Assembly: GCA_036244855.1 (NCBI GenBank)
Contig: BQKZ01001691.1
Location: 20,036-84,035, forward strand
Reading direction: 5' to 3'
DNA: 64,000 nt
Source: Temnopleurus reevesii
Taxonomy: Eukaryota > Echinodermata > Echinoidea > Temnopleuroida > Temnopleuridae
Shown: in pieces, positions 22,661-58,790 of the stretch
Position numbering within the stretch: the stretch's first letter is position 1
Layout of the letters: every line of letters begins with the position of its first letter
Notes under the pieces: model-generated
Database searches by the model: none
Told to the model about the DNA's origin: nothing
Seen by the model: only the letters and a program-made list of their open reading frames with translations
Position numbers and translations under genes: made by a program

Positions 22661-24195
22661 CAAGCACAATCCATGTAAGTTGATTATGATGAATTAATTT
22701 TGCCAACAACTCATCCATTGTGTATTTTTAATTTTTATGATTTGTAGGACTATTTATGATTCACTTTATTGTGTAATGTACATTGATGTTTTAGTAGATT
22801 TAAGGTATGATATTTTTAGATTATTTAATGAATGCTGGCTGGTAGCACTTAATGAAAGTAGCGATTTATTTGCCAAAATATGGTGCTTCCAAAAGTTCTA
22901 TATAAAAGGTATACTGAGACCAGTATTTTAATGTGCTTTCTTTATGCTTATATTTTCAAAATATCTATATCGCTTATCAAGAGATGATTGATAAGCATTG
23001 TAATCAATCAATAAATGAGAATAATTTATCAAATATACAATTGTGTTTGGATTTTACTGATTTCTATTGTTCACGTTTTGTTCACATTTCCAACATTACA
23101 TTGCAGATCATTGAAAATCCTTATTCTGCAATGATATTAATGATGTCAATGTACAGTATATGCCTATTTTTATTAATACAGTATTATAACACTAAATTTC
23201 TTTTTTTTTTGGGTCATTCAAAATCATATTTATCCTTGAGTCCCGTTTTCCTGGTCTTTTGGAACAAAATCTTTCAAAAGTAGAATAAATGAATGTATTT
23301 GGATGTAGGTGTTTATCACCAAAGAGAGATTTTCCAGTGCCCAAGGGCTAAACAGTGTTAGTTCTTAGAAACAACATCTAATGAATAAAAAAAAAATGGG
23401 CAATTTGCCTAAAGTCATTTTTTGTAATGTCATGCAAATAGTTTTAACTTTTCAATTTACTGCTTGATTTTTCTCTGTTCATTTGATTTGTCCTTTTTTT
23501 CATCAAAGCAGGATTTTCTTTCTACGAAAAACTCAAAATTTGAAATGATTAGTGTCTCTCATCGAATTTACTAGGCATGTAACAATAAAAAATTCACGTT
23601 TTCTGCATTTTTGTTGGTGTTAAGCAAAACCTTTTAAACATTGAGTGCATAGTATGGGGGTGTTACCGGAGGGACATATTAGAATTCAATTTCACAATTC
23701 TAAAAACACTCATTCTTCTACTTAGTTCAAGGGCTTTGTTATTTTTCTAAACGTTCTTTACATAATAGTAGGCATGCATGGATTTGCACCTCTTCGCTCA
23801 AATGAGAATATTTACAGAATCGGGTCTTATCAAAATCGTTCAAAGAAGTATTGTATCAAATTGTATCCAGGGTGAGTTTCCATGGTAAACTTGGAATTTA
23901 AAGAAGACATGATTTTGACAATTATTTTCCAATGAAATAATATTTTCAGCAGTTCGATGACTTGTTTAGAAGCACGTCAAGTGGGAGATCAGAAGTGGGA
24001 CATCTAATCTTGTTGAGTACCTTAGAAAATGTTGCATTTGAATTTATTTGCGATAACCTGGAGAAAGAAGTGTGTGTGTGTGTGGGTGTTATGAAAGTGG
24101 GAAAGAGAGAAGTTGTTGCCATCTAGCAGGCCTGAAAACAATAGACACCTGTTTCTCTTTTTGGCATTTTCAGCTATAGTGATGATGAGAAGAAT

Positions 24196-24197
<2 letters not shown>

Positions 24198-24233
<36 letters not shown>

Positions 24234-24312
24234 AATGACGATGATGATGAGATGGCGGTGGTGGTGATGATGAGGATGATGATAATGATGATAACGATGA
24301 TGATGATGATGA
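24198..24312. repeat. (GAT)n microsatellite
   Basis: Long GATGAT runs are interrupted by AAT, GAC and GGTGGT. Apparent reading frames here translate to poly-Met, poly-Ser or poly-His and are artefacts. Confidence 0.9.
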
Positions 24313-29442: not shown

Positions 29443-29646
29443 CCGGGGGTGGGGGGGGGGGGGGGGGGGGGCCCCCNNNNNNNNNNNNNNNNNNNNNNNN
29501 NNNNNNNNNNNNNNNNNNNNNNNNNNNNNNNNNNNNNNNNNNNNNNNNNNNNNNNNNNNNNNNNNNNNNNNNNNNNNNNNNNNNNNNNNNNNNNNNNNNN
29601 NNNNNNNNNNNNNNNNNNNNNNNNNNNNNNNNNNNNNNNNNNNNNN
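29443..29646. other. poly-G tract and assembly gap
   Basis: A G-run of nearly 30 bases with one T ends in GCCCCC and is followed by 170 Ns (29477-29646). The homopolymer probably caused the assembly break. Open frames spanning the gap are meaningless. Confidence 0.95.
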
Positions 29647-33390: not shown

Positions 33391-33591
33391 ATGCTGTCTT
33401 ATTGCCAAGCTGGATTTGCAGCATTGTCTATGCTCTTTCTACTTCAAACTGTCACTGCTATCAACATGCACAGATTAACCCAGTCACAGATACCAGTATC
33501 AAATGTAGCAGATCAAGAAATCTCTCAACTTCTCCAACTTTATCCAGAGCAACAGATCCTTGACAGAAATAAGCGATTTCCCAAATTCTTG
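33391..33591 (+). CDS. prokineticin-like gene, coding exon 1: signal peptide and propeptide
   Basis: The start ATG has A at -3. The exon encodes 67 residues: MLSYCQAGFAALSMLFLLQT then VTA, a typical signal peptide with a small-residue cleavage site. A polar propeptide follows and ends DRNKR, then FPKFL. Donor TTCTTG|GTAAGT, phase 0. The KR pair is a classic prohormone-convertase site. Vertebrate prokineticins lack such a propeptide and begin their mature part right after the signal peptide. The linkage to the downstream cysteine exon is inferred from strand, phase, and exactly five residues remaining before the exon boundary, as with AVITG in vertebrates. Confidence 0.75.
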
Positions 33592-36500
33592 GTAAGTATA
33601 ACAATATAAAATCCTCATCTTGAATTGAATTGATGCCATGAATTAGCAAAAAAATGACTCAATTTGGATTGATATCTTTATATAGTTAAATTAAGTTGTA
33701 TTTTTAAATCAACAGTTTGGATTAAAAACTAATCTTGATGGGTTAAATCTAATTTTAAATAAATCATATTTCAGACCTGTCCCTCAGGCCAATAGAAATA
33801 AATATCATTCATAAGCTTTTGAAATGCTGTAACATTCTACGTCATGGGTATAGAGCGAATCAACTCGAATGTACTTACGACGACTTGCGACAGTTTGCGA
33901 TTCATGAGGCACTCATAAAACTTAACGAACTTTGTCAACATGTTGAACATTTCAAAACTTTGCTATTAACTTTCATGACTTTTGTGACTATGGAAAAGTT
34001 GGTGCAAAGTGTTACGAATGTTTACGAATATCATAACGAATCGTTTACAAATATGAATATCAAATTTTGCAGTGGTTCGCCATTAAAGTCGCAATGCTTC
34101 GCCTAATTGATTTTACATATATGAACATATCGACACGAAGTATTACGAATGCTAACAGAAGTCAAGACGAATCCACAAAAAATACGCAACGAATATTAAC
34201 GATTTCAACTCGCAATACTTCGCAACGAATATCGTAAATTGTTCGCCTATGTGGGGTTGTGGAAATGCAAATTTACGATTTATGAATCGCAAAGATTCGT
34301 AAACATTAATGCTACAATAATTTACGAATACTTAGAAGCAGGTTATGAATGCGTTGCAGTAATATGCGATGTGCATACACAATTTCAAAACGATGCAAAT
34401 ATTCATAAACAGGTATATAACCGTTAGTAGTTGGATTAGGCCAATCGAAATCGCCAATCACAGAGATCTTGACTTTGCAGTTGTTTCACCAATTCATTTC
34501 TCTTCATAAAAAGAAATGCCATTTAAGATTCATAATTTGCTATGAGTCGTAAATAGTACACACCTTTTGAAACGATTAAATAGATGAAAGTATAAGGGAG
34601 AAAATATAACCTTTTAATGAGAGCATGCCTTGAAGTGAACGGACTTCATCTCCAGATTACAAATCTACATAAAGTTAGGATTTTACATTTGAAGTAACCT
34701 TGCAATATGTAACAAAAATATAATAATATGGCAAATAGACAAGATTAATGAAATATATCATAACAATTAATAGGGACAAAAAAGGTAAAGGTGGGGGAAA
34801 TTAAAATAGTTCAGTGAATTTGATTGAAATCATTTTTATGATATTTGTACAACTGTCGATTGAGGGATTTTTTTCTCCATTTAATGAGAAGATCCTATTT
34901 TTTTTTGTTGAAAGTCAGTTCGTGCAGCGTCGAAAATTGTGAAACATTCGTGGCCACAATCGGCTAAACATTGGGGGAGGGGTCGATGATTGAAGGTGTT
35001 TCCAAATTACTCGGTTTGGAAAAATATTGAGACCATTGCCCAATATAAGAGTTTTTTTACATATGAAAATTGCATTTCAACATAGAGATAACATACCCTA
35101 TCGACGTAGGCCAGCGTATTTACCAAAATCCCCATACGTCGAGCATTCGTACGTCCGCTAGCTTGTGTGACAGCCTTTTCACGAATATTTGCGAATAGGA
35201 CCATTTGGATACAAATTGTTTCGAATGCTTACGAAATTTATAAAAAAAATCGTTTGCAAATACGTTACGGATATTTACGATGAAAAAAATCGTAATGGAT
35301 CGCAATGAAAATCGTAAAGGTTCGGCTTAGTGGGACTCGGGATTTAATGTAACAGCAGCTCTTTTCTTTTGATGTCTTTTGGTTAACCGCTGTTAGGAAT
35401 CAAACCCGGGCCTCCCGATTGTGAAGCAAGCACTATATTATCCTAATTTGAAATGATTTGTTAAAATCTTTACTTTTCAACAATTAACACCAACTTTCAA
35501 AATAAGAACATGGAATAAAAGACGTAACCAACAAACCGGAGTGAGACTTAAGTGATTAACCACCAACTTGCCAATTAGTTGTCGCCTACCACTTCAAGAA
35601 GTCAATCAATGCAACAAAAAGTCCTCTATTCAAAACAGTTCTCTTTTACAATTTTATAGGGTTAATAGCCAAATCGCCTAAAATATGTAGTCAATTCCAT
35701 TCCGATCTTTAGTTCCAATTCCATGCAGGAAGCACGATTTTGATAACAAATGTTAGACGAATCATTAACAATGTAACATTTTCGCACTAAAATTCAAAAT
35801 TCCCATGTCAACAATATTATACATGTATATAATTTTATAGTAAATTAGTTGATTCAGTGAATTAAGGTCACATTTCTAAAATAAGAATAATATAGATTTT
35901 GTCTATAAAGAATCACATTCTGTTCACGTCACCCCCCCCCCCCCCCCTTAGCATAAAGAGGAGGTGTATCAATTACAAAGAGATTCAATCAGCTTTAAGG
36001 CTCAATTTAAAAATGAAATAAAGATAAAATCGCAATCATTAAGTCTATTGAATCAAACTATTGGATCTCCACTTTACATCAACATTTACTGGCATACGAT
36101 GAGCAGTAAATAAGTTTTCAAGTATCAATTTAAAAAGATTTCAAAGGGGTTTACCAGGGGCGGATATCTCAGATTGGAAACAAAAATGTATTTGATGTAA
36201 TCAGTTAATGCTCCAATAATGGATTTCAATCTGATTAATATCTTCAAATATTTCGTTGATATAAATATACGGAAGTTTCATTAATCCACCTGGCTCCCGT
36301 AATCATTATTCTAGTAAGAAATACAACACTCATGGATTAGATCGAAAATGAAAATGAATAATTTTATTCAGCATCATTCTATATTAACCAAAGGGATGTA
36401 AATCACAATCAAATCTTTGATACGATTGTTTTTGTTTCTTGTCCTCCCACACTCGGCATTTCATTTATCCCTCATAAGACAGGCATACTTGATAATGCTT

Positions 36501-39500
36501 GCATTATTTCAAAAGATTACGCCTCCACCAAATAGACCACACCAAGGCGTATAGCAATCACAAATAGATGGTAAGGAAATGTCTAAACCTCTTCATAATT
36601 ATTACATAATATTACAATTTAGAACTCTTTTAGACTTCCTAAATTGTAATATCAAATAGCACAAATCATAATTATAGTATTTTATCGATTGCCAAGTTTT
36701 AGTATACAGTGCGTGGTTAAGCGATAGATATAACACGACAATCAATAAAGTCAGGCATACATCCATAATTTAACAAATAAAGAGATATATGTAAATATTA
36801 ATAAATCAATGAATATTAATAAATCAATAAATATTAATAAATCAATAAATAAACTAATAAATAATCATAGGTTTACCTGGTCAAGTCTTGCATGCATTCG
36901 CCAAATTAAATTTGAGATCCTCAAATTTTGCGCGGAACGTTGTGGGAGAATAAATGTCTGAATTATACACCCAATTTATTTCAGTTCAATTCAAATCAAA
37001 TATACAGGAGCCATATACAAAGGAAACATAGTAATGAAATATTGAGCAAAAATGTAGGGGATTAACAAAGGCCAAAGCTTTATCGAGGTAAATCCATTAA
37101 GTACATATACATGTAACTATAAATAAAACATTACATAAGATACAAAAACTATAAAAATAAAAAAAGGCAGACAAACACATGTGAGCGGCATAAAAAATTG
37201 CAGATTAGAATTTCGTTATAATTTTGTTTTAAAATACTACGCGAGGTTGTTTTTCCAAAGTAAAGGTTCGGATGAATTGAAGTTTGGGATTATTTTTTTT
37301 GGTGAATTAAAATTTTTAGATTGTTTTGTATAATTTTGTGAAATATCTAATTTGTTTTGAATACATTGATATATATTGGTACTAGAAAATCATGATTAAA
37401 TATTATTAAGTACATGAATATGCAGATTGATATTTGTTCATATTTTCTATGAAGAGTAAAATACAATTTTTAATAGATATTGCGTACTGCATGGTTGAGA
37501 AAAATGTGTTATTTGTAAATCTGTATAGTATACAATCAATGCTCCTCCAATATATAGCGCACTTAATCCCCCAAAGTATATTACAATAATGTATGCATGG
37601 CAGAACTAAGAATGATATATAGTGAAGAGTATATCAAATGGAGCTAAATCTTTTAGTCTATTGATTCCACCAATCGATCTACATATTTTGCAACATATAC
37701 GTGTTCTTTCCAAGTAAATTCATCACACACCATATATAAGAAACATGTGGAGTGAACAAAGAAATTTTGCTTTTCGAATGTAAATATAATGATTGCAACT
37801 CGAAATAATTTTGTTTTTAGATTTCTATAAAATGCAGCATGCATCATGAGTACTACATGCATCATAAGTACTAAGTATGAATTTGTTTTCAACAAACCAA
37901 TCATTTATTATTTACAAGCTCTGCATCAAATTACAAGCATTTAAGTTGTCACCTGATAAAAATGAATTTGTAGCATCTGCAAAAAAATATGGGATGCAAG
38001 ATATAGCTAGCATGCTGAACCTTGTGGTACACTATTGAAATAATTAATATAAAGAGAAATATTATTAATAGAAACATATTGTGATCTGTCATCAAGATAA
38101 CCTTTAAACCAGTCGAGAGCCACTCCTCTTATACCATAATGCTGTGTTTTAATAAAAATGCAAATATTGCATTGACATTGAATTCCATGAATATGAATGT
38201 ATTCTGTTCCAATATGCTATACTCACTGTGAGCGGAAGGGACAAAGAACTTGGACAAAGTAAACAGCTTCATTCAGGCGTTCACGATGATCACAAAGGAA
38301 GGTCACAGGTCCAATTCTTATTCAACATTTTCCAATGAATAACAAGGATGGAAATCTCTTCTGTGACCACCTAGCTATTGTTAACGCTTGAATGGAGGTT
38401 GTTTACTTTGTCCCTTCTGTTTAAAGGCCTGGTCACATCACAAATCCTCTCATCACAAATTCGGGTGTATATATATAATTTTTTAGTAATTAAGCCCTGA
38501 TTTTGTACATGCAACTCAATTTAATTCCATATTTTATCTACTGTATCCTGCTGTTTTATAATATATTCAAATTTGAATTTTCTTGTGCAATTGAAATGCA
38601 ATTCCGGTCTTTTTACACTATTACTCCTCATACTTTTCCATAGCAATAATTTTAATTTCATGTCAATTCTTTTATTCTTGTAAGAATATCAACGCTCTTG
38701 CAGTTTCTATTCTCTTAAACCCAACCAGCATATTATAATATAAACCCAGGTACATTATATTTTAGTAACCAAACCCCAGTTCCATTTAAATGTGTATTTC
38801 TTGCTTCAAATTCTAATGTCATTTGTTATTTCCTTTTTCCTCAAATTCTTCTTTCTTTTCTCCTACTTCTTCTACTTTTCCTTTCTTCGTATTTTCAGTC
38901 TTTTCTCCCTTTCCCCTACTTCTCATCATCCTCATTTTCTCCCTCATCCTAGATCTAAACACTTATTCTTCTCCTCTCAATTACTCCTTTCTATATCTCT
39001 TTTCTTTTTACTTTTGGGACTACCCTCTTTTTAATGTACATATTACTTCTCATTTCCAGTAATTTTATCATAAAATTCGCACGTATGTAAGATTTTGATT
39101 TGATTATTTTATGTCTTGCTTGTAAACAAAATGTTATTAGTCCTCGGACTTTTATTTTGTACTTTGATGATTATAATTTTAATAAACCTGAATTGAATTG
39201 AATTGAATTGAAAAACATCAGCCGAGCGGTGCAGGAGCAGACCTAGAGCGGTGACAAAAATTCATCACCGCGCGTAACCGTTCACAACCGTTTAACATAT
39301 GTTGGCATCCGCTAAAGTACCACTGGATAAGCTCTTCAATCTTTCATGGTCCCTAGTTCCGCTCCAAAATGCGTTTTGAACCGCACACAAGATTGCGAGA
39401 GGTAAGGAGAGGGCAAGTTTCCGTTCTGGCAAAGTTCACCACCGCTAGAACACCGCCCTGGCACCGCTAGATGCAGGTTTGTGGCCTCTTGGATCCGCTA

Positions 39501-42500
39501 GATCAACGCAAAATTCTTGAACGCTGGACTACCGCTCAGCTTCATTGGGCTTCATTTCAACAACGCTCGTCATCGCGCACAAAGTGGGGGTAAAATTGAA
39601 TACTCTAGCGTTTCCATGGCGAAAGCAGGTGAAGCTTTAGAGTCGGTCGAACGGTTGTGAGCCGTTGCAAGCGTTAATCTAACGGTGGCCTAGCGCTTGG
39701 CAGAGCGACATCGTGCGCATGCGTGCTTTGGTTCGTCGGAAGTTTAACCCTAAAAGCCATGCCCACTTAAAAAAATCGTCAAGCCCAAACTGGCTCAAAA
39801 TCACGATTTCGTCTACAAAGTCAATGTAAATTATGTTTTCAGTAAATATTAATAAATGATATTATTACGTTTATGGAATCGTTATGGCATATTTATGATT
39901 CTAATTAGTTCAGCAATACAATTCCAATAAAAAAAACAATGAAAAACAAAATGTCAAAATCCAAAAAAAAATAAAAACATTCGAAATTTGTCGGAATGAA
40001 TTTCGTTTTTTTTAAGTGGATTTGTAAAGAATTTTATTATAAACATTCACACACATCCACGACATGACATTGTAACTTTATTCCAAGTCAGACGCTTTAA
40101 TAACTGAGCTATGTATCCAATCTTGTTGTACGATGTACACTTATACACCGGAACTTTGGTTAGTCTCAAGCAGAAACAGGTTGCCACCACTCAATGAAAA
40201 ATGAGTCATCGTAAGGTTCAATATTGCACCCGTGGGTGTTACAAATGATCCATTGTGTAATATCGCACTTTTTTTTCTAATCATGCATTGCAAATCATCA
40301 CAAAAGTGTTAGGATAGCACCAGTTAATCTAACACCAAAATACCATAAGATACAAAAGAATAGTGCGCCACCCCATGAAGGGGCACGACCCCTTGCACCT
40401 TTCCCCGACTGAAACCCTACACCTGAATACCATATCTCCTCGTGACAAAATGATATATTACATGGACATCAACAACTTCTTTTAAAAAAAAATGCTTGAC
40501 TTCATAACAAGCGAGAGAGAAATATAATTGTACATCATTTTACCAAGAAACATCCTTGCGACAATTCAATGAATGACATCCCGAAAGTCCTGCATGGTGT
40601 TCAACCATCGTTTCCAGTCTCAATATCAATACACACGGGCTTTTAGAAGCAGATCTTACCTTAATCGTATCTACAGGGGGTCAAACTTAGCTCCCAAAAG
40701 TACATACCTTAAACCAGTATTGATTGTAACTAAATCAGTTGTAATTCTCAGCTCGTATACGGAGAAATCAAGTAGATCAGTACATCTTTGAGCCATTTGA
40801 TCTTCATAAAGCCTCAAGTCACATATCACACAAAATCGTCTATACATCTTTTTATGTCCCACTTGGATTTCAATTGATCTGAAGTGAGCAATTCAAGTCA
40901 TTTTGCCATGAAGATGAGAAGAATGTAAGTACTAATAAGGTGTTATTTACCGTATTTTTTTCAAAGGCAGGATAGTCCTATTCAGGCTATAGTTATTTCC
41001 TGCTTTTCAAAGAGTCACACAGGGTATACTTTTGATTGATTTTGATTTCCGTCAAGTGAATATATTACATTTAAAAATAGACAATTTTTTTGACAGCACA
41101 AATTCAAACAGGAATAATAAACATAAATAGTATACATAAAAAAGGAGAAAAGACGGCTGGATACCTAACATTCAGCTTCTAGTCATTTATAATTAAATTG
41201 AAACATAATAATTTTCAATTAAATCACATCGATAGATCCTTGAAACAATCAATATTTAAAGCAGCGTATTGACACTGTGTTGTATCCAATAATTTATTCA
41301 GAGCAAAAAATGTGTGCACTTCGTTTATTCCGTTGAATGAAAGTTGGTCTCTGTTATCCATCCTTTTGTCTGTCATATCTATTATGGATAATTGTAACTA
41401 ATGAGATCGACTAAATTCTTGAAGCCGTCTTATAAAAAATCTGATCAAGAAAAGTAGTAGTTTTACTAGAATTATGATTTTTACCCTTAATGTTTAATTT
41501 CTTCTTCATTCCTGATGTTCACCGAAACCATAATACTTTCTGTATATAAATAGGATGATGTAAAGCCAGTAGCCGAGGATAAATGTTCAATGAGCGAATG
41601 ATATTCCCCCCTTCATGATTCCACCTTGCCTGAATAGTCATTGACACATGTGTTGGAATTCATACTTGACGCATCTCGCAAGCCATCATCGTGAACATGT
41701 CCATGGTTAGCATAATGACGTAATGCTACTATGATGGTGCTTCAAACTGATTCAAAAGGTTGGAAAGAACAAGCACGTATCTCTCAATCATTGAGATTTA
41801 CATCATGACAGTTCGATTAAAATAGACATTTCATGGAAATAGAAAGAGTTCATATTTGGTAGACCTTTTGATGAGTGCGAATCTAAGACTAGGATTTTTG
41901 CTCATATAAGTTACAGGAAAGTTCACCCTGTCTCCCCCTCCCACCACCAAATATATCTTTAAAAATTATTTGACGATTCGGGGTCCATGAGTTTTTGTTA
42001 GCTTTTGTGGAGCTGGTCCTGATGCTGCCATATAGGGATGGGTTCGATTGGGGACCATCTAGACATCCTAACAGTTCGGGTATCATAATCTGTATTTATC
42101 GTCATGTACTTTTATAATTGTAATGAAATGTTTATATTCACTATAACATGGTGAATCTTTAATAATATGATCATAGTTGTTTGAGTTTGTTTGGGTTATT
42201 CAAGCATGTTGCTTTCTTTCAATGAAAGTGCTACTCTATTTCAACAAATTGACTGATATATAAACAAGTAAAAAATAATTTAATTATTTAAAAATAATTA
42301 CTATGTCATTTGGATGAATTTAAGCGGTCTGTCTGTTAATATTTTTGTACGGATATGAAACGATGTTTAATAGGAAAGAAGTAATCCCCTATAAACCCGG
42401 GTTATTTGATAATAATATAAAATTCCTCTACACGCCATATAGAATCAGTAAAAAAAAAAATATCCCATGATTTTTTTTAGAGATGTACTGTTTAAAGTAG

Positions 42501-42757
42501 GAAATTGCCATGATGCAACGTATGGTAATTGTGTTGTAGAATATTCATTCCTCTCCATTTTAGTACCCTGTTCAATGGGAAAATTGCACGCATGACTGAA
42601 CAAAAACACTTTCCCCAGCATAAAAAGTGCAAAATTTTATTTGCGTCAAGTGGCTGGATGAGCAACTTTAACAGGACTTTAAAAAGGACACGCACACACA
42701 AACACACGTTCACGTATACCCTTAAACACGTAAATAGTATACACATGCAAACACGAA

Positions 42758-42798
<41 letters not shown>

Positions 42799-45700
42799 CA
42801 TAAACACTCACACATGCACCCGCACCCAGTAATTCAAGTTAAAAATGGACAAATATGTTAGCGCATATAATCTTAACCCCTCCCTCCAAGAAAGATAATT
42901 ACTAACTGCCTGGTGAGTGGCACAATAGAAAAATAACCCAAACAAAAAGGAAATCGTGAAGTTATCAGATTACCTCTATAACTCTTCAAACATGTCAATT
43001 TATCATGAGAAAACCTTAACGGAGAAAGGCCAAATAAGTATTGAGTCATTTTATTTTATTCCCTCTTTCCTTATCAGCGTGTACCATTAACTCACGAGCT
43101 CCGCCACCCCGCCCCCTTACTTACTTTCAAGTCAAATCAAGCACGTCGTCGCAAAAAATATATATATATACATAATTTGTTACAGATCGTCACAAAGTAA
43201 TATTCGTTGGAATATTAAAGAAAGTTGTATCTTATATCAGGGCAACAGACTGCATGCTAGTTAGCATTACGTCTCCATATCACAAGGCTGAAGATTTGGA
43301 AATCCTCCATCCGGTTCTGTAACGTTACGGAAGCAATGTCTGGTGTAAAACCATCAGAGAAAGCTTTTATTTGAGTGGGAAGAAGTTGCTTCAAGCAAAA
43401 CTGGTATTATTTTACGTTTAGAGTGTTTCTAAATTGGCATGATTTGGGCATTGTGGCGCACAATGGGCGCAAACTATTTTGATAGCGAAATGGATTCCAA
43501 AGAAGGGTAACATATCCAATAGAATGGTGTTTTACAGAATGCAAAGAAAACTTAGGTTTTGCTCCAAAGCGAGAGGGGAGGACAAATGGAGAGCCTTCTA
43601 ATTAATTTTGAACGAAACGGAATATTTGATTTCGTTTCTTGATATTCTGAAGCTCAGATAGGAATGAATTTTGGTTTTTAGGGTTAGATTCGCGTGGTAA
43701 AATATGCGTGGTTTTTATGCTTAACATTTACGATATTTTGAACATTAAACCTGGCATCGTACGTCTTTTAAAACCGCGACAAACTCATCAAGACTTGCCA
43801 GACGGGGATGAAGTTGAATTTTGACCTTCTTAATATTACAAGTGTCTTTCTAAGGAACATAATTCCGGAACCAGATGATTGACTTGGTGAAAGGCTGAAA
43901 AAAAAAACAGCTGAAAATTGCCATGAACAGATTAAAAATAACATGCACTCATATTGTTTTGCTTTCTATCAGCCCATACGGATTCTTAATTCATGTTTGT
44001 TATAAAAATATTAATGGAATAATTAAAGGAAGTTAGTGGGTACGCTTAACATGATTCGTTGCCATAACAATTAAGAGAAAATCCATTCTGATAAATCCAC
44101 ATTTTGATCGGATGCATGCTCTTAGAATTCTGTACAACATGCTGTCCATAACTGTTAGTTAAAACATACACTCCATTGGAGGTGATGGGTCTATAGTTAT
44201 AGATATTTTTACCAAACAGGAGAAAATTATTTTACCAGTACCATTGGATGGTTGGTGATATTATGTTGCCCATTGCAAGTGTTGCGCTGCCTTCAATCTA
44301 CCTAGGGAGCAAAACCCTGATTTTAGGGTCAAGGTGCAATGACGAGAAAGATGGAGTAGTCCTATCTAGAATTGTTCTATGATTCCTGCGGAACATTTCT
44401 AGGGTGGACTACCCTTGCATCGAGGTGCACAAGGTTGTCAAAAATGCAGTTGCCATGGCAACGACCCTCCAAAATCCGGATTTTTATTTTAATCAAAATG
44501 GTCACTATAGATTTACTAATATTTTGTATTAACTGGTAAAAATATGCGTGTTGAAATATTCCTAGATGGAGAAGTCCGATAAAATACTTTTTGCATCAAC
44601 ACGAATAACGGTTGCCATGGTAACAGCCACATATTTGTAAAAAAATCTAGGATTTTTTAAAATTTTTAGCACAAAGTTAAATATTTTATTAATTTAAGGG
44701 GATCTATTGTCAATTATCTATATTGAATTACAAACCTATTTTATCGGTATATAATGTAGCCAAATATTATGTTCTATTAACTAGCCATTTTGTTACCATG
44801 ACAACAAAACCGAGCTCGATACATGGAGTGTATGTGACTAGTTTGTATATTTTTGTACAATTCATCAAGTTATTGACATTGATTTTCATGGAATACTTTG
44901 ACATTTCTTTTCTNCCACCACGGTCACATCTGACGCGCTACTGACCCTAAATACTATGATATTGGTTAATGACTGAGAACTGATCCCAGTCATCAATGTG
45001 TAGTCAGCGGATGGAGAAAATACTTTAATCAAATTATGAAAATTTGAGCAAAATCGGAAGATTCATTTTAAAGTTATGAATTTTCAAAGTTTTGATTGAA
45101 ATCCCTCATGAGCTCCTTAAATTTGCACCCTACGTGCACAAAATGGCTGCCAACATGAATAATTCTCCATTCACCTTGTACACACCATTTAACAGTTTCC
45201 CCTTTTACAGAAAAGCAAATAAAATTTTGTTTATTTTTAAGTAAAATATGATATATCTACAAAATTTGGAATGCTCGAGACTCGTAAAACGGCCTTAAAT
45301 TGTACATTTCACATTGAAAATGTCTGTGCTGTGCCAGCAGTATGCAGAGACAATACGGGAATTATAAAAAGATGTCGACAGATCTTGTTAAGGAGTAACG
45401 CATTTTCATTGCTTTGCCATTTTGACTATAGGCACCTAACCATTTCGGAAGGGTTTTTTTCTGCCACATTCTTGCGGCGTATATTTCAACATGAATCGAA
45501 CAATAGCACTATAATAACACTATACGAGATTCTAAAGAAAATCATTTTTCGATAGAACGAAGCATCCGAGCTTCATAAAATGTTCTTATTTCAATCACAA
45601 ACTGATGTGTTATTTTCTTCATACATTCCCCGAGTGAGAATGAGAGCATAAACCTTAAAAGGTTATATAAAACGTTGAAAAAAAAAGAATGTAAAATGGT

Positions 45701-48700
45701 CTGTGCATTAATTTTAAACTTTCTTCCTACGTCTGCAAAAAGTATATGAATGATGTCCTGGGGCAATGCCCATCTCTGCCTACACGAAATCACGTCCATT
45801 AGGATATAACTCGTGTTGGAGAATTGTTACGTGGTTGGGTGTAGGTGTATAGGTAACATTGCCCCTAGCGATGTAGGCGTAAGATCATCGTGAGAGATGG
45901 GGAGAAATCGGTCCTGTGATGTGATTCGCTCTCGAGTGCGCACTACTCAACCTACAAGTGCCCGTTTATGAATTCTAACACATACAGATATTCAAGGGAA
46001 AGTCGTAAATAGTATCAATACGGGATATAAACATTTATTTAAGTGTATCACATGTTCTTGGAAAATCTTTCAATGGGTAGCAGCACTACGAGTTTCTGGC
46101 ACTAATAAAAAACAATATAAGTCATTACAAGATGATATCTATAAACGAGTCGAAAATATTTAAATCAATCGAATCTTATTTTTAATCGGTAATGAACATA
46201 ATTATATAATTTTTCAAAAAGGATGTTCAGTCATCCATTTATCTTACTCAAACTTGTTGTTATTCATTTAACTGTGATCACTACAAGTTCTCTGAGTTGC
46301 TCTACTTGCCTTTTAAAGTTGTAATCTGACGATGTAAGTGTTCAGCGTTGGATTCTTCTACTAGCCCTGTTTAGGATCCGAGTGTCGCTTGGTTAAGAGG
46401 ATTCATGTGGATTAGTTTTCGAAATACGAGATCGTCTTAAGAAAGAAGAAAGGCAGGCAAAAGGGCTACCATGCCATTAAATGTCAAGCAACTGAAAAGT
46501 TAGCACATTAATAGGTCAGCAGTATCTCTCTTTTGAGCACATAAAATATATATAAATGGATAACAAACAGGTCCTTTGGTGAAGGAAGTTTAAGTGTCAA
46601 CCAGAATACATCTGATGTGATGTAGTCAGCCTGTAATAAATTGGCAAAAATGAATTAAAGATGGCGCTATAAAGCATGTGTTTGGGTGTTTCCAATTAAA
46701 GATAAAGAAAAGAATGAGCTAGCCACTTTTTTTCAGAATAATATACGTTTATATAGTTTTCACCGATTCTATTTTGCAGGAATAATTCCTCCAAGTTCTT
46801 AGCATTTTCCAATAAAATGAGCACACATAGATTAAAGATATAACTTTTCAAAAGTGTAACAGAAAATTACTTTTGCTTGCAAGACCACACTCTAGAAATT
46901 TCATTAAATTTGGGGATTTTGGGGGTAAATTTCAGGAATTTTAATTCTAGAGAAAAAAAGTAGACTCCTCAGCGTTTCATCTCAATCGATCTTAACCATA
47001 ATTTTGGGTCAAGCAAACCAAAATGATTTTAAGAATTAGACTGGGTGCAGCATTGGTAAACATACCAGTGTGAACGGGAAGCGTGAATGTTAAAAGTCGT
47101 GTTACAAGGAACTAAAAAGACATTAAAAGTTCCATTTTGCAACTGACGTGTTGTCACTAATAAAAATACCAAGCGATCATAATCATTTTCTATTTCACGA
47201 GTTTAGCCACAGTGTTGACAAATACTACTAATAACGTCTGTTACTGGAACCCCCTCAGTTTAACCATTTTATACCCACATTTTACAGTCAAGAATTTATC
47301 ATCACGTGCACGCTCTGCGACTGAGGTAATTTGACATTTTAGGGTAATTCACAGAAAGCGTTTTGACTTTGAGATCCATCACAGCGCAGTATAGCGGTTG
47401 TGGCTCTGTCTTGAAAATTGTTGACAAGAATGATATGTGTCTTTGCACCTCAGAACATCATTTGCGGTTAAAAAATGCTGGTATGCTTGTCATTTGTGTC
47501 GCAGTTGGAATTGACACCATGACAGCCATCTCAAGATCAATCGCAAGACTCATCGCGAGTATACACGATGAGTCTTGAGACCGTTCTTCTTGCTAGTCTT
47601 GGTATCGCCATGCTCGTGTTCTACTACTGGAAGTCTACTTACGGGTTCAAACATGCCTCTCGCAATATATTTGTCTAGCGTCAAGGCCATGACGGCGCCG
47701 AACTTACTGGCTCTACATCCAATGATGACAAAATCTGGTTTACACGCGTTTGTTTAAAATTCCAATGTCATTTTCTTAATCGAATGGTTTGACAACTTTG
47801 AACAACGAAATTTATACCTTGTAGTTGTACAGAAAAAAAAAAGATTTTATTTTGTTTTGTTGTTTTCGTATTGTGTAAAGTTTTCCTAATTTTTTACATA
47901 CAGCAAATACATCACGTAAAGGACTTCTTGAAACGTGCCAATGTTTATTCTTCAAAAGTCTTTCTTCTTATGTTATGGATTCATTGTAAAATTCTTACAT
48001 TATTTTAGCATATCCAAATTATGTATCTGTCAATGCTTTACCAGATTTTTAAATTGCATCGGCACGAGTCACACACCGAATCTGTATGCTACTTTGATTC
48101 ATGACATGTGATTTGCAATGCTCTTCCACATCGGTTGGTTGTGTTCAGATATTATCAGTTTATGCGTTGACATGCATCATAATGACAAGAACTTACGCAT
48201 TTTTACACTTAATGCATCATTCTGTGGTATGATATTTCTATTTATATAGTCGGTAAGAAGATTGAGCACCAATTACCGTCGGTCTTAAACATTTAATAAG
48301 ATATATTGGGGATGATGTAAAAAAGAACACTTTAATGGAGAATCAAGAAATATCAAGGTATCTATTGCCAAGGAATGGATGACTAGGTACAGATTAAAAT
48401 GTGCGCCAAAACCCTTACCCAGTGTGCACATGCAACTTATCATTTATAATTATTCTCGTTCCATTTTTTCCAAATAAAACCATTGTTTGTAAGATACATT
48501 TAAAAGCACACTGTCTGCGCCAGATGGATAACCAGAGACGATAGAGTATCATTTCACTCGCATTTATATTTCTAGCCAAAGAAGTGCTCGTTAGAGAAAT
48601 GATACTTCCACGCGTGAAAATTGATATTCTATTTCCTTTGGTAGATACTCTAACAAGTCATCAAGATAGCTATATCCTTCCCCGCATTGCATCTTATGGG

Positions 48701-50849
48701 AGACCCCAGGATCCAATATCCATTGAAATCATAACACTAATACTGATTACGGCACCAGTTATTCATCTATTTCTCACATCTCGCAAAATATAGATAAATT
48801 ATAACAAGAAAAAACCGCGATATGGGAATTAGAATTTATATTTCATGGACATAATGATATACGGATCAAGAGAAATAATGGTAGACTTTTATTATCTTAG
48901 TAAATGTGACATTCACACACATTCTCCCTATGGAGCAGTACATGAGCTTTAAATTAAATTATAACGCTGAGAGTGTTTAAACAATTAGACCGTAAATATG
49001 CACGAAAATAATCCCATTGTGCTAATTTCTGTAGCTTACTCAAACTGCAAAAGGTGTATCGTTTAGCAATTTGTGAAGTGCTCAGAGGCGGGATTCGAAC
49101 CCGTGCCTTTGATAAAACGGGATTGCTTGGTTCTATCCGATCGTGTCGTGTTCCCGTGTGTAAAAGATGGAGACTTGAAAAGGTATTAAACACTAGGTGA
49201 CTTCAAGTACGGTGTTGAACGCTGGTGTTGGTGTTGCAGCAAAACCAACACCAGCCTCAACACCAAACTTGAAGTCTGTCGGTGTTTGGGGTAGACCTCG
49301 CAAGATTCTGACGTATTTCCGGTCGTTTCTGTATCACTTCTGTAAACTGACCAACGGTGTTGGAGCTCGGTTTATGGATCGTTTTGCTCTCTCAACACCA
49401 ACACCAACACCGAACACCGTATTTGAAGTCCCCCAATGACTTTATAACATAACACAACGCCCGATTGTGGTTGTCAAAATGGTGCAAGATTGCACCTCTT
49501 TTTTGTACTTTGCTTCCTTTGTGTACCCTTTCTTTTGTGCTGAGCGTATACATCAAAAGGGTGTAATTTCGCACCTTTACGGGTTTTCACGACGGTTTTG
49601 CACCCTTTGCGCACCTTTTTTTTAGTGTGTAGCTAAAGTACTAATGCCAATGGTGCTGATGTTTTATTTTCATGTTGAATATCATCTCGTTGATTTCTTC
49701 AAACAGATGCATTTATTGGTTTGAAAATCATACTCGTTTAGAAAAAAACATCGTTTCATTATGGTAGTAAATTTACAAGAATACGAGTTCAATAACATGA
49801 GCTTGAATATGACTTTCGCAAGGTGTTTCCCCTAGCTAGCCCTCCTCAATTTTGTTGAACTCAATTAGTGAAATTATTTTTTGAATTATTCAAAATTATT
49901 TTAGAGGATTTGTAGCTTTGATCGTTTGCGTTTAATTTCTTGCTGCAACGTGGGCGAACAAAGCATATAAAGATGACAAAGCAAAGTGTTTCCAAGAACC
50001 CATTCACATAGAACCCCCGACTAAACACGATTCAAGACGGCTCAATGTTCACTGACAAGATGACTGCCCCCGAACAAAGAGTCGTGTCGAATCTTGGTTG
50101 GTAGGGAATTTTCCCGAGCAAGAAAATAAATTTCATTGACAAACAAATCAATGTTCAGAATAAATCATGTCTGCCCATATTTCATGAAATATAAAAGGAG
50201 CTTTGCGAACTCGGAAATATGGATGAAAGATACACAACCAATTACTATACAAGCTTAAAAGTGCCACCCAGATGTCTGGATAATCGAATAATGTCTACAT
50301 CTGTTAGAAGAAATGCTCAGTTGGCGAGATCTCGGAACTGGTCAGTGCAACATCTTGTAGAAGAAATTATCAAATGACAAGATCTTAAGCCCCGGTCACA
50401 TAGGGCTCCAGAAGCAAAACGATTCACCCCGACTCGTTGTTAATCCACAGTTAACTGCCTCAGAACAACGAGTCGGAGTGAATCGTGTTGCTTCCGGGGT
50501 CCTATGTGACCGGGGCATTAGATCCCGTCATATACATCCTTTGGATTTTTTTTTTAATTTGACCAGGTGCTTCAGATTCATAACTCTGAGCTGTGACTCC
50601 ATTCTTCTGAAATCTCCTTGATAGAACGAAGCTTTTCTCTCCTTTTTTGCGTTGACGGAGCCTTTTTTTAATTTTATTGAATGCTGGGAAGACATTGACT
50701 ATAAATACTAATGTAATGGACGTCTAGGCAAGGGGCTCATTATTTCCTTTATTATCATAATTTTAATTATTATTATTATTATCATTATTACTATTATCAT
50801 TATCATTATCATTATGATCATCATTATTATTATCATAACAACAATTATC

Positions 50850-50889
<40 letters not shown>

Positions 50890-52736
50890 ATAGTAGTATT
50901 AGTATCACTATTATTATTATAATAATAATAATATTTGCGATGTACGGGAAAGTACAATAAAACAGGCATAGAGAACGAAACACTTTCATTTAGCGGCGAC
51001 AAAAAAAAATTATTCATGTACAAAAATCGACTTAGGGACATCCTATCGATGCCCTTTTGGCATTTATGTATTTCCATATAAGTTTGGGGTAATTGTGCAT
51101 TTTAAAGATTAAAAGGCACTTGCATCTTTCAAATATAAAAAAAATATTATTATTTAGTTGACCCTATTAAGCACACACATCTCACCGAATCTCGTTATTT
51201 TCTACCATCCCTATTCCGCGGACAAAATGGTAAATTTCAATTTTTCAACTTATTCTTTTCTTTACCATTTCCTTTCACTAGATGGTGCTATTTCCCACTG
51301 TTTTCCTGAGATCTAGTTTGTGAAAACGTAAAGGCGAAACGATATTTTCCCCCATATTACAACACAAAATTTTGACTTAATCCGCCAATAATTACATCAT
51401 TATTTGCTTGGTAGCTCATTATTGGCTGGCGAAGTTTACTCTAAGGGGAGGGATGGGGGAAGAATGACCTGTTTTGGTGGTCGTGTTCGTTGGGTGTCAC
51501 ATGGAAACACGTAATTTAATGAATGAAAATGTGCTCGCAAATGTTTTATTAATTTGAAGAATCTCATAGGCCCATTTAGCATATTTCCCAAAGATTTGAA
51601 GACTTTTTGCGTCAAAATGATTGAGTTGTTCTTTGAACTACATGTTAGATAATTTGAATAGGAAAAATATGGGAAGATATTTGATATCTAATGCATTTTA
51701 TAGTTTTGATGAATTTCTTATGGATTTCTCTGTTTTCGATTTTTGTTATTTTTATCTATCATTTTTACTAAGAATACATTGAGAAATAATTATCTCCAAA
51801 TGACATCAATATCAAACGAAATACTTACTTTTCAGGTGATGTTGCATCATATGTGATTTATCATTAAAATCCATTTCCCATTCGTTTTGTACACACAACC
51901 AGGATATTGATTTTTTTGTTGTTTTGGAGCGAGCACTCTGCATACTGATTCAAAATAACTTCAATAGTTATGCGAGGGATGAAAGATGATAGAAGTCACA
52001 AGTGCATATATATATATTTTGCTATTTTTCGGGGCGCCACGAAATATCTAGACCCTATCTAGATCGAGATAGGGGGATTAATTACCACCCAGATTATAAC
52101 ACGACCCTGATTGCCCGGTCACATACGATTCCAAATATGTTTGAAGTGATCGTGCGAAGTTGTCATTTTTGGCAAATGTTCGGTTTAGCAATTATTTGAA
52201 CGGAGTATTGCCATATCCTACTGTTTCACTGCTGAGTACTGCTAATCACATGTTTGACATTAATATGTATTTGGCCTGATCATTAAATATATTGGGGTAG
52301 TCAAGTTTGGTTGTCCAATAATTACTCTCATGAATGAACTGATTGTCTAATATTATACTGTTAATATTTCTTTCTTTTCTTTCTTTCTTTCTTTTAACTC
52401 CCTATGAATGCCACTTCAACAACTGGTTCACCTCTTTGGACAATTGTCTTCTACGTCATCACTCCTTCGTCCTCCTACTCAATGACGTCATGACCGTAGA
52501 CGTGTGAAACCGACGATGACTGCGCAAGGTTAGATCGACCAGCTTGCTGTGCTAAATCAGTGATGGGTCCTTTCTGGGTGTGCAAACCACTCGGTGAACT
52601 CAACTCTGCTTGTAATGCATATAGTATGCCTCACATGTGGGGTGGTCAGAGAAATGGTCATTTCTGCCCATGCAAGAAACATCTTGTTTGTGTCGGACAT
52701 AGGCGAGGTGGTTGTGATTTAAGAAGTGAAAAATAG
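33391..52736 (+). CDS. prokineticin/astakine-like secreted peptide precursor (2 coding exons, 145 aa)
   Basis: Exons 33391-33591 and 52500-52736 join at a phase-0 GT-AG intron of 18,908 bases. The precursor has a signal peptide (about residues 1-23, cleavage after QTVTA), a propeptide (24-62) ending in Asn-Lys-Arg, and a mature peptide of 83 residues starting FPKFLTCETDDDC. Ten cysteines sit at mature positions 7, 13, 21, 22, 33, 43, 61, 63, 69 and 77, including a CC pair, CKPLG and CPC. This is the prokineticin/astakine/colipase-fold pattern. C7-E8-x-D10-x-x-C13 and the total length match vertebrate prokineticins (81-86 residues). Those peptides are secreted ligands of G-protein-coupled receptors acting in gut contraction, circadian output, angiogenesis and haematopoiesis; arthropod astakines are blood-cell cytokines. 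The AVITGA N-terminus that vertebrate prokineticins need for receptor activation is FPKFLT here. No other exon between the two is needed, but I cannot exclude one. Confidence 0.78.
33830..35340. repeat. region rich in TTACGAAT-type words
   Basis: TTACGAAT occurs exactly at 34012, 34022, 34143 and 34322. Many variants occur between 33840-34335 and 35140-35330 (AACGAAT, TTCGTAA, TTCGCAACG). The two clusters end with related strings, GTTCGCCTATGTGGGG (about 34239) and GTTCGGCTTAGTGGGACTC (about 35319). They look like two members, possibly inverted relative to parts of each other, of a family with internally repeated words. Open frames of 60-95 codons here are not recognisable as proteins. Confidence 0.5.
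35395..35435 (-). repeat. tRNA-like (SINE) fragment
   Basis: The reverse complement reads GGCCCGGGTTTGATTCCTAA, close to a tRNA T-arm/B-box. There is no complete cloverleaf. Confidence 0.3.
36793..36862. repeat. 18-bp minisatellite ATATTAATAAATCAATAA
   Basis: About three to four tandem copies grade into AATAAATAAACTAATAAAT. It is AT-rich simple sequence. Confidence 0.8.
36985..38200 (-). pseudogene. decayed non-LTR retrotransposon (LINE) with reverse transcriptase remnant
   Basis: On the minus strand, about 38145-38000 reads HYGIRGVALDWFKGYLDDRS then QYVS...SVPQGSA. This matches the CR1/Jockey/Rex-type reverse transcriptase stretch before the catalytic motif. After a deletion, FFADATNSF follows where FADDT is expected, then a stop, then INDWFVENKF. 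The catalytic Asp pair is broken and the frame is interrupted, so the copy is dead. The element runs down to a tail TTTGATTTGAATTGAACTGA at about 36985-37005, typical of LINEs with TTGAA-type tails. Confidence 0.75.
38232..38430. repeat. foldback element
   Basis: AGCGGAAGGGACAAAGAACT ... ACAAAGTAAACAGCTTCATT followed by CAGGCGTT is mirrored by AACGCTTGAATGGAGGTTGT followed by TTACTTTGTCCCTTCTGTTT. Arms are about 60 bases around an A/T-rich loop. Confidence 0.6.
38440..39212 (+). mobile_element. 3' end of a LINE with (AATTG)n tail
   Basis: The stretch ends TTTTAATAAACCTGAATTG followed by repeated AATTG units (to 39211). This is the usual 3' terminus of non-LTR elements that end in a short tandem repeat. 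The body is T/C-rich non-coding sequence; apparent frames are simple-sequence artefacts. The 5' boundary is approximate. Confidence 0.5.
39215..39770. repeat. GC-rich repeat block with ACCGCTAG words
   Basis: The block is clearly more GC-rich than its surroundings and begins directly after the LINE tail. It repeats words such as CACCGCTAGA, CCGCTAGATC, GGACTACCGCTCAGC and GCCTAGCGCTTGG on both strands, consistent with a degenerate foldback. No coding frame is evident. Confidence 0.45.
42758..42797. repeat. (AC)n microsatellite
   Basis: About twenty CA dinucleotides lie in a wider CA-rich region from 42689 to 42820. Confidence 0.95.
44164..44835. repeat. inverted-repeat-bounded element with three X-box palindromes
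   Basis: It is bounded by ACATACACTCCAT (44164-44176) and its reverse complement ATGGAGTGTATGT (44823-44835). Inside are GTTGCCATGGCAAC (44449-44462), GTTGCCATGGTAAC (44611-44624) and GTTACCATGACAAC (44792-44805), spaced 162 and 181 bases apart. These match the RFX-factor X-box (GTTRCCATGGYAAC). The spacing and the terminal repeats suggest a repetitive element with tandem internal units. Confidence 0.6.
44995..45240. repeat. diverged relative of the TTAA foldback family
   Basis: GAAAATTTGAGCAAAATCGG followed by a short gap and AAAGTTATGAATTTTCAAAG parallels the interior of the element at 19921. The termini are not recognisable. Similar remnants lie at about 53610-53780 (GAAATTATTGTGCTCTC, CCGTTCAAAATTATGAC). 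Confidence 0.45.
47550..47753 (-). pseudogene. possible fragment of a universal-stress-protein-like coding sequence
   Basis: The minus-strand frame encodes 67 residues between stops, containing KPDFVIIGCRASKFGAVMAL followed by TLDKYIARGMFEPVSRLPVV. It resembles the C-terminal end of universal stress proteins (DxIVIGSRG...GSVSxYV...PVLV), with the GSVS turn altered. There is no start codon, no clear acceptor, and a stop directly upstream. A GAACCC|GTAAGT string inside could be a donor. On the plus strand the same DNA reads MSLETVLLASLGIAMLVFYY followed by WKSTYGFK, a possible membrane anchor, from 47569. At most one of these readings is meaningful, and both may be chance. Confidence 0.25.
48576..48793 (+). 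other. orphan exon-like open frame
   Basis: It follows an acceptor-like TTATATTTCTAG and stays open for 71 codons to TAG. It reads KEVLVREMILPRVKIDILFP ... DPISIEIITLILITAPVIHL followed by FLTSRKI, with one possible membrane segment near the C-terminus. I do not recognise the protein, and no partner exon was found. Confidence 0.25.
49077..49165 (-). repeat. tRNA-derived SINE-like sequence
   Basis: The minus strand reads GGCACGGGTTCGAATCCCGC, a near-perfect tRNA T-arm with B-box GGTTCGAATCC (49091-49101). It is preceded by GGATAGAACCAAGCAATCCC. The D-arm is not well formed, so this is a tRNA-derived repeat rather than a working tRNA gene. Confidence 0.5.
49199..49430. repeat. foldback element with GGTGTT words
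   Basis: GACTTCAAGTACGGTGTT (49199-49216) mirrors AACACCGTATTTGAAGTC (49413-49430). Inside are short repeated GGTGTT and AACACC words, for example CTGGTGTTGGTGTTG against CAACACCAACACCAACACC. Confidence 0.75.
50389..50516. repeat. 128-bp palindromic element
   Basis: GCCCCGGTCACATAGG ... AAACGATTCACCCCGACTCG TTGTT is mirrored by AACAACGAGTCGGAGTGAAT ... CCTATGTGACCGGGGC. Arms are about 57 bases around a loop that includes GTTAACTG. The CGGTCACAT end motif also appears at about 38440 and 52107, indicating a dispersed family. Confidence 0.85.
50765..50935. repeat. compound ATT/AGT trinucleotide microsatellite
   Basis: ATTATT and ATCATT units are followed by about fourteen AGT units and then ATT/AAT. 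Apparent poly-Thr or poly-Ile frames are artefacts. Confidence 0.9.
52366..52395. repeat. (TTTC)n tract
   Basis: This tetranucleotide repeat lies about 105 bases upstream of the second prokineticin exon. With TCTTCTACGTCATCACTCC and TCGTCCTCC downstream it contributes a pyrimidine-rich approach to that acceptor. Confidence 0.85.
52500..52736 (+). CDS. prokineticin-like gene, coding exon 2: ten-cysteine domain
   Basis: The acceptor is GACCGTAG. The TAG is in frame with the exon, so the frame opens exactly at the splice site. It encodes 78 residues and a stop: TCETDDDCARLDRPACCAKS, then a stretch with CKPLGELNSAC, then GHFCPCKKHLVCVGHRRGGC and DLRSEK. All ten cysteines of the fold are in this one exon, whereas vertebrate genes split them over two. 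The spacing CExDxxC, CC, CxPLG, CPC with LxC six residues on is diagnostic of prokineticin/astakine. Trp-26 in the exon (FWVCKPLG) sits where vertebrate members also have bulky residues before CxPLG. Confidence 0.88.
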   Translation, partial: TCETDDDCARLDRPACCAKSVMGPFWVCKPLGELNSACNAYSMPHMWGGQRNGHFCPCKKHLVCVGHRRGGCDLRSEK

Positions 52737-52800
52737 TTCGAATGAAAACTTCTTTTGATGTGTACGTCTTTTATGGTATAACTTTTGAAAAATCAATAAA
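52737..52800 (+). terminator. short 3' UTR and poly(A) signal of the prokineticin-like gene
   Basis: AATAAA at 52795-52800 lies 59 bases after the stop codon, with an A-rich stretch just after it. A very short 3' UTR is plausible. Other A-rich signals further on could give longer forms. Confidence 0.6.
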
Positions 52801-57198: not shown

Positions 57199-57275
<77 letters not shown>

Positions 57276-57563
57276 AACGATGATGCTCCTGATGATGAAA
57301 AGTTTGGTGATAGTGATGATGATGAAAGTGATAATGGTAGTGGTGCTGTTGCTGCTGCTGCTGCTGATGATGATGAAAATGATATGGTGCTGGTGGTGGT
57401 GGTAATGATGATAGGCCTACTGAAAATAGCGGTAATAATGCCGATGATGCAAATTATGACGATTAAAATGATGATAATGGTGATGGTGGTGGTGCTGCTG
57501 CTGCTTCTGATGATGGTGATGATAAAGAAATGATGATGGTGGTGATGAAGATGATGATAACTG

Positions 57564-57626
<63 letters not shown>

Positions 57627-57632
57627 GAATGA
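57196..57632. repeat. (GAT)n microsatellite array
   Basis: Two long uninterrupted GAT runs (about 57199-57273 and 57563-57625) are joined by imperfect GAT, GCT and GGT units that continue to about 57755. In one frame it reads poly-Asp, in another poly-Met. The long apparent open frames are artefacts of the repeat. Confidence 0.9.
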
Positions 57633-58790
57633 TGGTGATAGTGATGACGATGAAAATGATTATGGTGGTGGTGGTTGTGGTGGTAGTGGTGGTAGTGGTG
57701 TTGGTAGAAGTGGTGATAATGATGATGATGACGATGATGATGATAACGATAATGCTGCGTTTCGTGAAAAAAAACTCATGGCGATGATAATTGTTATATT
57801 GATGATAATCAATAAGTAAATAACCATTTTAAGGCGCACAGTGTTAATTCTCTAGAATCTATATATTGAGGAAATTATCTTGCAAAATAAGATTTACTCC
57901 CAATTTACGGTAATATGATCTAAAATCAACTCAATAAGCCTTTTGTAATTTTCTATATTAATAACAAGATTGACACTGAAGTAATGATAACAGAAAAAAA
58001 ATAATCCCCTTTCCCGTTTTTTTTTATCCTAAAAATAATTGATCCTCGTTTAAGCAATTGATCAGAAATATCATTTTTCCCTCTTAGATAATAATTTAAA
58101 CATTTAAACAAATATTAAACAAAGAATAACATGAAGACCACTTTCTTACGAATGCATAATATCGATTCATTCAATTATTTCACTGACTTAATGATTGAAC
58201 ATTAGTACATTGTAGAGTAATTTCTCAACAAAGATGTTATAACAAGATGACTATGAGAGAGGCATCATCTTATTCTAAAACGAGAAATTCAATTTCAGAT
58301 TCCATGATTATTAACCAACAAGTGTCCTATTACGAATCAAATCGAATATGATTCTTCTAAGATTGATGTTATATTTCAAATAGATTAGACACGTTAGCTT
58401 GATATGTTAGTTCATCGCCCCGAGTATGAATAACATCAATTTCGTAAATATAAAGTTGCGGAGTGGCTGAAAGTGACACACAATAGCTTAGGGCAAGGAC
58501 AATTTTAGTCACTAAGATAACAATACACAATATAAAAAAGGATAATTGCGATGGAAAAAGTAGATAGGCGCGGAGTTGAAAACGTAATGTATGTCTTGGT
58601 TGGGAATTCAGCAGGAACCTCCTAACTCGAGAAAAACGATGTCGTCTACATTTCATTGCGTCACTTAATTGACAATTGAGAAAAAAAAAAAATTGATATG
58701 AAAATAAATCTCACTTTTAAATGTACAGAGTTTTCGACACCCCTCCCCTTCCCGACGTCGCGTCGGCTATGTTGGAGTTAATTAATCCAC

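Follow-up and report, generated by a model that had tools for sequence, protein, structure and literature searches.

A predicted prokineticin-family signalling gene of ambulacrarian type, with a paralogue and candidate receptors, in the genome of the sea urchin Temnopleurus reevesii

Two open frames in a 64,000-nucleotide stretch of contig BQKZ01001691.1 of Temnopleurus reevesii (the whole stretch analysed is called the window below), the one with a hydrophobic start and the other, 18.9 kb downstream on the same strand, with ten cysteines, raise the question whether they are the halves of one gene for a prokineticin-like hormone and, if so, which part of such a hormone would address a receptor. 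A secreted prokineticin-family signalling protein of ambulacrarian type is the best explanation overall, with a probability of about 0.78. The hormone as such is real, but a prokineticin in an invertebrate deuterostome has already been in print since 2024.

As judged from its sequence, the window gene almost certainly belongs to the prokineticin family, and this identity is independent of transcripts, of the structure model, of the provisional receptor query and of the small conservation sample treated below, whereas the reading of its processing and sensing does depend on them. The cysteines of exon 2 are arranged as C-x5-C-x7-CC-x10-C-x9-C-x17-CPC-x5-C-x7-C, and a loosened form of this ten-cysteine pattern finds a single match in the six frames of the 64-kb window and none in 200 first-order Markov sequences of 64 kb, likewise read in six frames each. 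With the Pfam family PF06607 Prokineticin, exon 2 scores 27.7 bits and the joined protein 26.6 bits against a cut-off of 21.6, while among solved structures the domain has two relatives at E ≤ 1, namely MIT1 (1imt, E 9e-5) and Bv8 (2kra, E 0.0077). A search of the 558-Mb genome with PF06607 yielded two places at E ≤ 0.1, both above the cut-off, namely the window (31 bits, E 1.2e-4, the match extending one codon over the TAG at the acceptor) and a second contig, C2637; all five candidates of this search were scored, and as introns were ignored, a domain divided by an intron could escape it. None of the 14 control genomes, the kinds of which are not stated, matched the family. Tblastn of both exons against the window gave no second copy (the three other rows, with E between 1.0 and 3.7, are short matches due to chance), and Rfam at the gathering threshold gave no match on the window. 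Among stretches of viral contigs, 0 of 50 matched exon 1 and one of seven matched exon 2, over 12 residues in L001, which is taken as chance.

Exon 1 opens with an ATG at 33391, separated by six codons from an in-frame stop upstream, and leads over 67 codons from a hydrophobic start ending in TVTA (top 15-residue Kyte-Doolittle mean 1.89, from residue 10) through a propeptide to DRNKRFPKFL and the donor TTG/GTAAGT at 33591/33592, the slash marking the splice site; the end of the exon and the beginning of the intron thus read RNKRFPKFL/GTAAGTATA. Exon 2 begins behind the acceptor CCGTAG/ACG at 52499/52500 and comprises 78 codons up to the stop TAG at 52734-52736. On the plus strand, three of 3218 gaps from one AG to the next measure at least 192 bases, the acceptor's own gap included and another maybe arising from a run of 170 N, and since 192 bases before the acceptor are free of AG, it is the AG naturally reached first from a pyrimidine run lying some way upstream. 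The earlier note on this DNA had paired a signal-peptide exon with a ten-cysteine exon 18.9 kb downstream on the same strand, both in phase 0, and its coordinates and reading stand, as do its poly(A) signal after the stop (AATAAA at 52795) and its cysteine order and spacing, which are exact on a count of exon 2. The secreted prokineticin-family ligand that it had proposed is upheld by PF06607 above its cut-off, also in the profile search of the joined protein which the note had suggested, by MIT1 and Bv8 as the best solved relatives and by the same two-exon layout in a paralogue (Table 1).

Table 1. Coordinates of the window gene and its paralogue; positions are those of the window unless contig C2637 is named
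Feature	Position	Strand	Content	Remark
Exon 1, coding part	33391..33591	+	67 aa: signal peptide, propeptide, KR site, first five predicted mature residues	
Predicted signal peptide	33391..33459	+	23 residues ending TVTA	judged by eye
Lys-Arg, predicted prohormone-convertase site	33571..33576	+	with the next three codons, KRFPK	cleavage inferred
Codons for FPKFL	33577..33591	+	predicted mature residues 1-5	positional counterpart of AVITG
Intron	33592..52499	+	18,908 bases, GTAAGTATA...CCGTAG	phase 0
AG-free stretch	52306..52497	+	192 bases before acceptor	pyrimidine run ~52367-52395
Exon 2, coding part	52500..52736	+	one Thr, then ten-cysteine prokineticin domain (78 aa), TAG stop	
AATAAA, probable poly(A) signal	52795..52800	+		just 3' of stop codon
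Paralogue exon 1	C2637:44720-44944	minus	75 residues, hydrophobic start (15-residue mean 2.76)	
Paralogue exon 2	C2637:23096-23317	minus	TC and ten-cysteine domain	

The second gene, on contig C2637, encodes a domain in which 39 of 74 aligned residues are identical to the window domain (53%), with all ten cysteines common to both; it scores 31.3 bits with PF06607, above the cut-off given, and follows an acceptor, TTTCTTTTCAG/ACGTGT, that is in phase 0 like the window acceptor. Its exon 1 was sought via codons for K/R-R-F-P in 30 kb of its strand, covering the domain and the upstream side, where two matches were found, one of them with a donor exactly seven codons further. This exon ends in IEKRFPKML/GTAAGTATA, with FPKML in the place of the FPKFL of the window gene. 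The two halves lie 21.4 kb apart, and the phases and the first nine intron bases are the same as in the window gene. A stricter rule, set after both exons were known and combining the motif, a GT exactly 21 bases on and at least 40 open upstream codons with an ATG, has both exons 1 as its only hits in 294,072 strand-bases of the window and the fetched neighbours; on a single strand of each of 300 Markov sequences 64 kb long, which hold no real genes, it selected none. The pairing of the window exons is supported because an independent copy of the same layout is present in this second gene. Downstream of the paralogue, beside a long N stretch, three to four head-to-tail units of ~58 bases were seen by eye (L003:646-857).

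The sequence K/R-RFP-K/R next to the prokineticin domain has been described as a signature of the prokineticins of ambulacrarians and Xenoturbella (Schiffer et al., 2024, PMC11521371). The KRFPK of the window gene agrees with it, and likewise that of the paralogue, so that one feature speaks for both the family and the likely animal group, the presence of the hormone in such an animal not being new. The ligands of ambulacrarians and of Xenoturbella bocki are described with the same signature beside the domain and with conserved cysteines, and X. bocki has two complete ligands (PMC11521371), the window genome two domains found; the likeness is one of signature and domain. The placing of a prokineticin hormone in an invertebrate deuterostome by the earlier note accordingly fits the signature, but has lost its newness to the publication of 2024, and the new bridge between vertebrate prokineticins and arthropod astakines that it had seen has to be given up, as the ambulacrarian and Xenoturbella signature was published then (PMC11521371) and prokineticin-type precursors of other invertebrates, namely nemertodermatids, several lophotrochozoan phyla, an oyster and an annelid, have been reported.

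The exons 1 of both genes share KRFPK[FM]L (six of seven residues), followed by TC across the junction, with 13 of 51 aligned residues identical in the rest of the exon and 19 of 58 overall (gapped alignment, score 9). The search of the protein collection with the joined protein gave one protein at E ≤ 10 among five candidates, P0002 (134 aa), which matches exon 1 only, with identity at 48 of 67 aligned residues as far as the junction. P0002 carries KRFPK and is known from the exon-1 part only; it reads DRNKRFPKFL and then VS, as expected if it continues into the intron. On these two genes plus P0002, the argument from N-terminal conservation is built: a stretch kept amid changing surroundings is as expected for a tip that would touch a receptor, though for the KR a conserved cleavage site would be explanation enough.

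With vertebrate PROK1/PROK2, Bv8 and MIT1, the window gene has in common the ten cysteines, the CPC, a CxPLG-like turn and the Pfam domain. In PROK2, exon 1 encodes the signal peptide and AVITG and exon 2 begins with Ala6 (PMC8876856), PROK1 is divided in the same way (PMC8877203), and a mutation table assigns G32 to exon 1 and C34 to exon 2 (PMC3624607). Compared with AVITG/AC of vertebrate PROK2, FPKFL/TC of the window gene has its intron likewise after the fifth mature residue and one residue before Cys1, and this shared position argues for one ancestral deuterostome gene. The window gene differs from vertebrate prokineticins by a propeptide plus Lys-Arg before the mature N-terminus, and a cut after KR would leave six residues, FPKFLT or FPKMLT, before Cys1, the same length as vertebrate AVITGA. 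We lean towards the reading that the ambulacrarian hexapeptide FPK[FM]LT-C is exposed by a prohormone convertase after K/R-R, unlike AVITGA, which is exposed by signal peptidase, and that the intron before Cys1 is ancestral; the length of the hexapeptide, the intron at the same residue and the rank of this stretch as the best-kept part of exon 1 between diverged paralogues point that way. If this is true, the published K/R-RFP-K/R signature combines a cleavage site with an agonist tip, and the intron is at least as old as the common ancestor of ambulacrarians and chordates. Section 14 of the paper that introduced the signature holds no remark on the intron position, and neither that section nor a word search of the main text gave a remark on the first two signature residues as a cleavage site ('convertase' and 'dibasic' both count 0, 'cleavage' 2, in methods and references; PMC11521371); in the passages of the prokineticin literature within coverage, which leaves out most subscription journals, neither the KR cleavage nor the point of the shared intron was found.

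Taken as a whole, the following sequence of processing and receptor engagement is considered fairly likely. The precursor would enter the secretory pathway, where signal peptidase would remove about 23 residues, and a prohormone convertase would then cut after Lys-Arg, giving an 83-residue peptide that starts with FPKFLT-C (predicted mature start Phe63, FPKFLTCETDDDC...). The compact ten-cysteine body would dock outside a prokineticin-receptor-like G protein-coupled receptor (GPCR), while the free N-terminus, whose six residues up to Cys1 correspond to vertebrate AVITGA, would enter the transmembrane pocket and switch the receptor on. The exact mature start matters because an addition to or loss from the N-terminus makes the vertebrate hormone an antagonist, as described for a Met before the first residue or the loss of the first two (PMC2694302, PMC8877203). 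The predicted tip is unlike AVITGA in sequence and the same in length and place. The published signature would thereby become a testable claim as to which residues form the free N-terminus and whether the tip activates a receptor, and prokineticin signalling outside vertebrates is represented, in one genome, by a complete gene model together with a paralogue and candidate receptors.

As to the receptors, in 2018 prokineticin receptors were known only from deuterostomes, to which one from a nemertodermatid was added (PMC6188537), and a sea urchin Prokr2 is named elsewhere (PMC7280269). A provisional human PROKR2 sequence, not drawn from a database record, served as query and gave at least 84 matches in the genome at E ≤ 1e-8 (scores being computed for the best 107 of 565 candidates), a number in keeping with the large size of the GPCR family. 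Vertebrate prokineticin receptor genes have an intron within the DRY motif (PMC8877203). Among the best receptor matches, exons that stop or start at DRY are the first halves on C142, C655 and C3833 and the second halves on C142 and C1245, the two halves on C142 lying 28 kb apart on the same strand. Splice sites divide the Arg codon of DRY at donor and acceptor of C142, at the donor of C3833 and at the acceptor of C1245, and in the first half on C655 an in-frame stop codon follows DR immediately. Introns at DRY occur in other GPCRs too. The joined two-exon GPCR of C142 scores 195.4 bits with the provisional PROKR2 query versus 127.9 with the best PDB chain, NPFF receptor 2, and the C1245 exon 117.1 versus 82.1 with bombesin receptor subtype 3; none of the best 60 PDB chains in each comparison is named a prokineticin receptor, so that only receptors of other kinds enter the PDB comparison. 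Identity among the three first halves is 46 to 59%, from which two or three PROKR-like genes in the genome are likely. The search for a prokineticin-receptor-like GPCR in the same genome, put forward in the earlier note, was thus successful as to PROKR-like exons, their identity staying at the level of candidates obtained with a provisional query. The stretches concerned (L030, L018, L022, L015 and L019) hold three distinct first-half exons and two second halves among the best matches.

Several observations weigh against an ambulacrarian-type prokineticin as the product of the window gene. AVITGA is absent and FPKFLT precedes Cys1 instead; Trp24, described as crucial for binding to vertebrate receptors (PMC8877203), has no counterpart: its place is a gap in the alignment with MIT1, and in the paralogue the stretch from CC to the following Cys lacks Trp. 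The second intron of vertebrate prokineticin genes, which divides the cysteines 6 + 4 (PMC8876856), is absent, all ten cysteines lying in one window exon. The exon join was read from genomic sequence alone, and the acceptor is weak close in, with nine of the 18 bases before the AG being pyrimidines and a fraction of 0.67 across ~57 bases. To these are added the provisional receptor query with its many matching GPCR exons, the search of the protein collection with exon 2 alone, which gave no candidate, and the single-sequence AlphaFold2 model of exon 2, with a mean predicted local distance difference test score of 65.9, for which Foldseek against the PDB returned eight matches at E ≤ 10 but nothing reaching E ≤ 0.001, so that a colipase fold with five disulfides was not confirmed by it; this low-scoring model is treated as uninformative rather than as counter-evidence.

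The intron of 18.9 kb, the join from genomic sequence and the few pyrimidines near the acceptor would suit two exons of different genes, or a missing exon between them, but such an arrangement is very improbable given that matching halves in the same phases recur in the second gene at a distance of 21.4 kb, that KRFPK is reported adjacent to the N-terminus of the domain (PMC11521371) and that the intron position equals that of PROK2 (PMC8876856). A colipase-fold protein with another job, be it a venom peptide of the MIT-like atracotoxin type, a protease inhibitor or a colipase relative, is improbable as well: PF06607 alone passes its cut-off in either gene, and the intron position, the N-terminal signature and the receptor exons point to a prokineticin. 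Such a job would be favoured by the match of the paralogue to PF17556 MIT-like atracotoxin, which stays below threshold (21.9 versus a cut-off of 27.5 bits), and by the mamba venom protein MIT1 as the solved structure that the window domain matches best; MIT1 is called an orthologue of human PK1 in a review (PMC2694302).

An astakine-like cytokine would have the same domain and act on blood-cell precursors via a receptor other than that of prokineticins, a cell-surface ATP synthase subunit having been proposed for astakine (PMC8398477). Arthropod astakines share the prokineticin domain and ten conserved cysteines with the window gene (PMC8398477), and the window gene is without AVITGA, as said of non-vertebrate astakine and prokineticin precursors (PMC8398477), its domain also being without Trp24. 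On the other hand, the domain of arthropod astakines bears distinct signatures (PMC11521371), and protostomes are said to be without prokineticin receptors (PMC8398477), while the window genome has PROKR-like exons, which leaves the cytokine reading unlikely and a prokineticin of ambulacrarian type preferred.

Apart from the prokineticin gene, the window contains at 2485-3162 on the plus strand an open frame that encodes leucine-rich repeats (76.6 bits with LRR_8) and probably represents one exon from an unrelated gene, and at 29477-29646 an assembly gap of 170 N outside the prokineticin gene. Two trinucleotide arrays are present, the one at 24180-24312 with 45 copies of TGA and the other, imperfect, at 57199-57664 with 156 copies of the unit ATG and 71% matches, which in several frames translates into long stretches of D, I or H/S.

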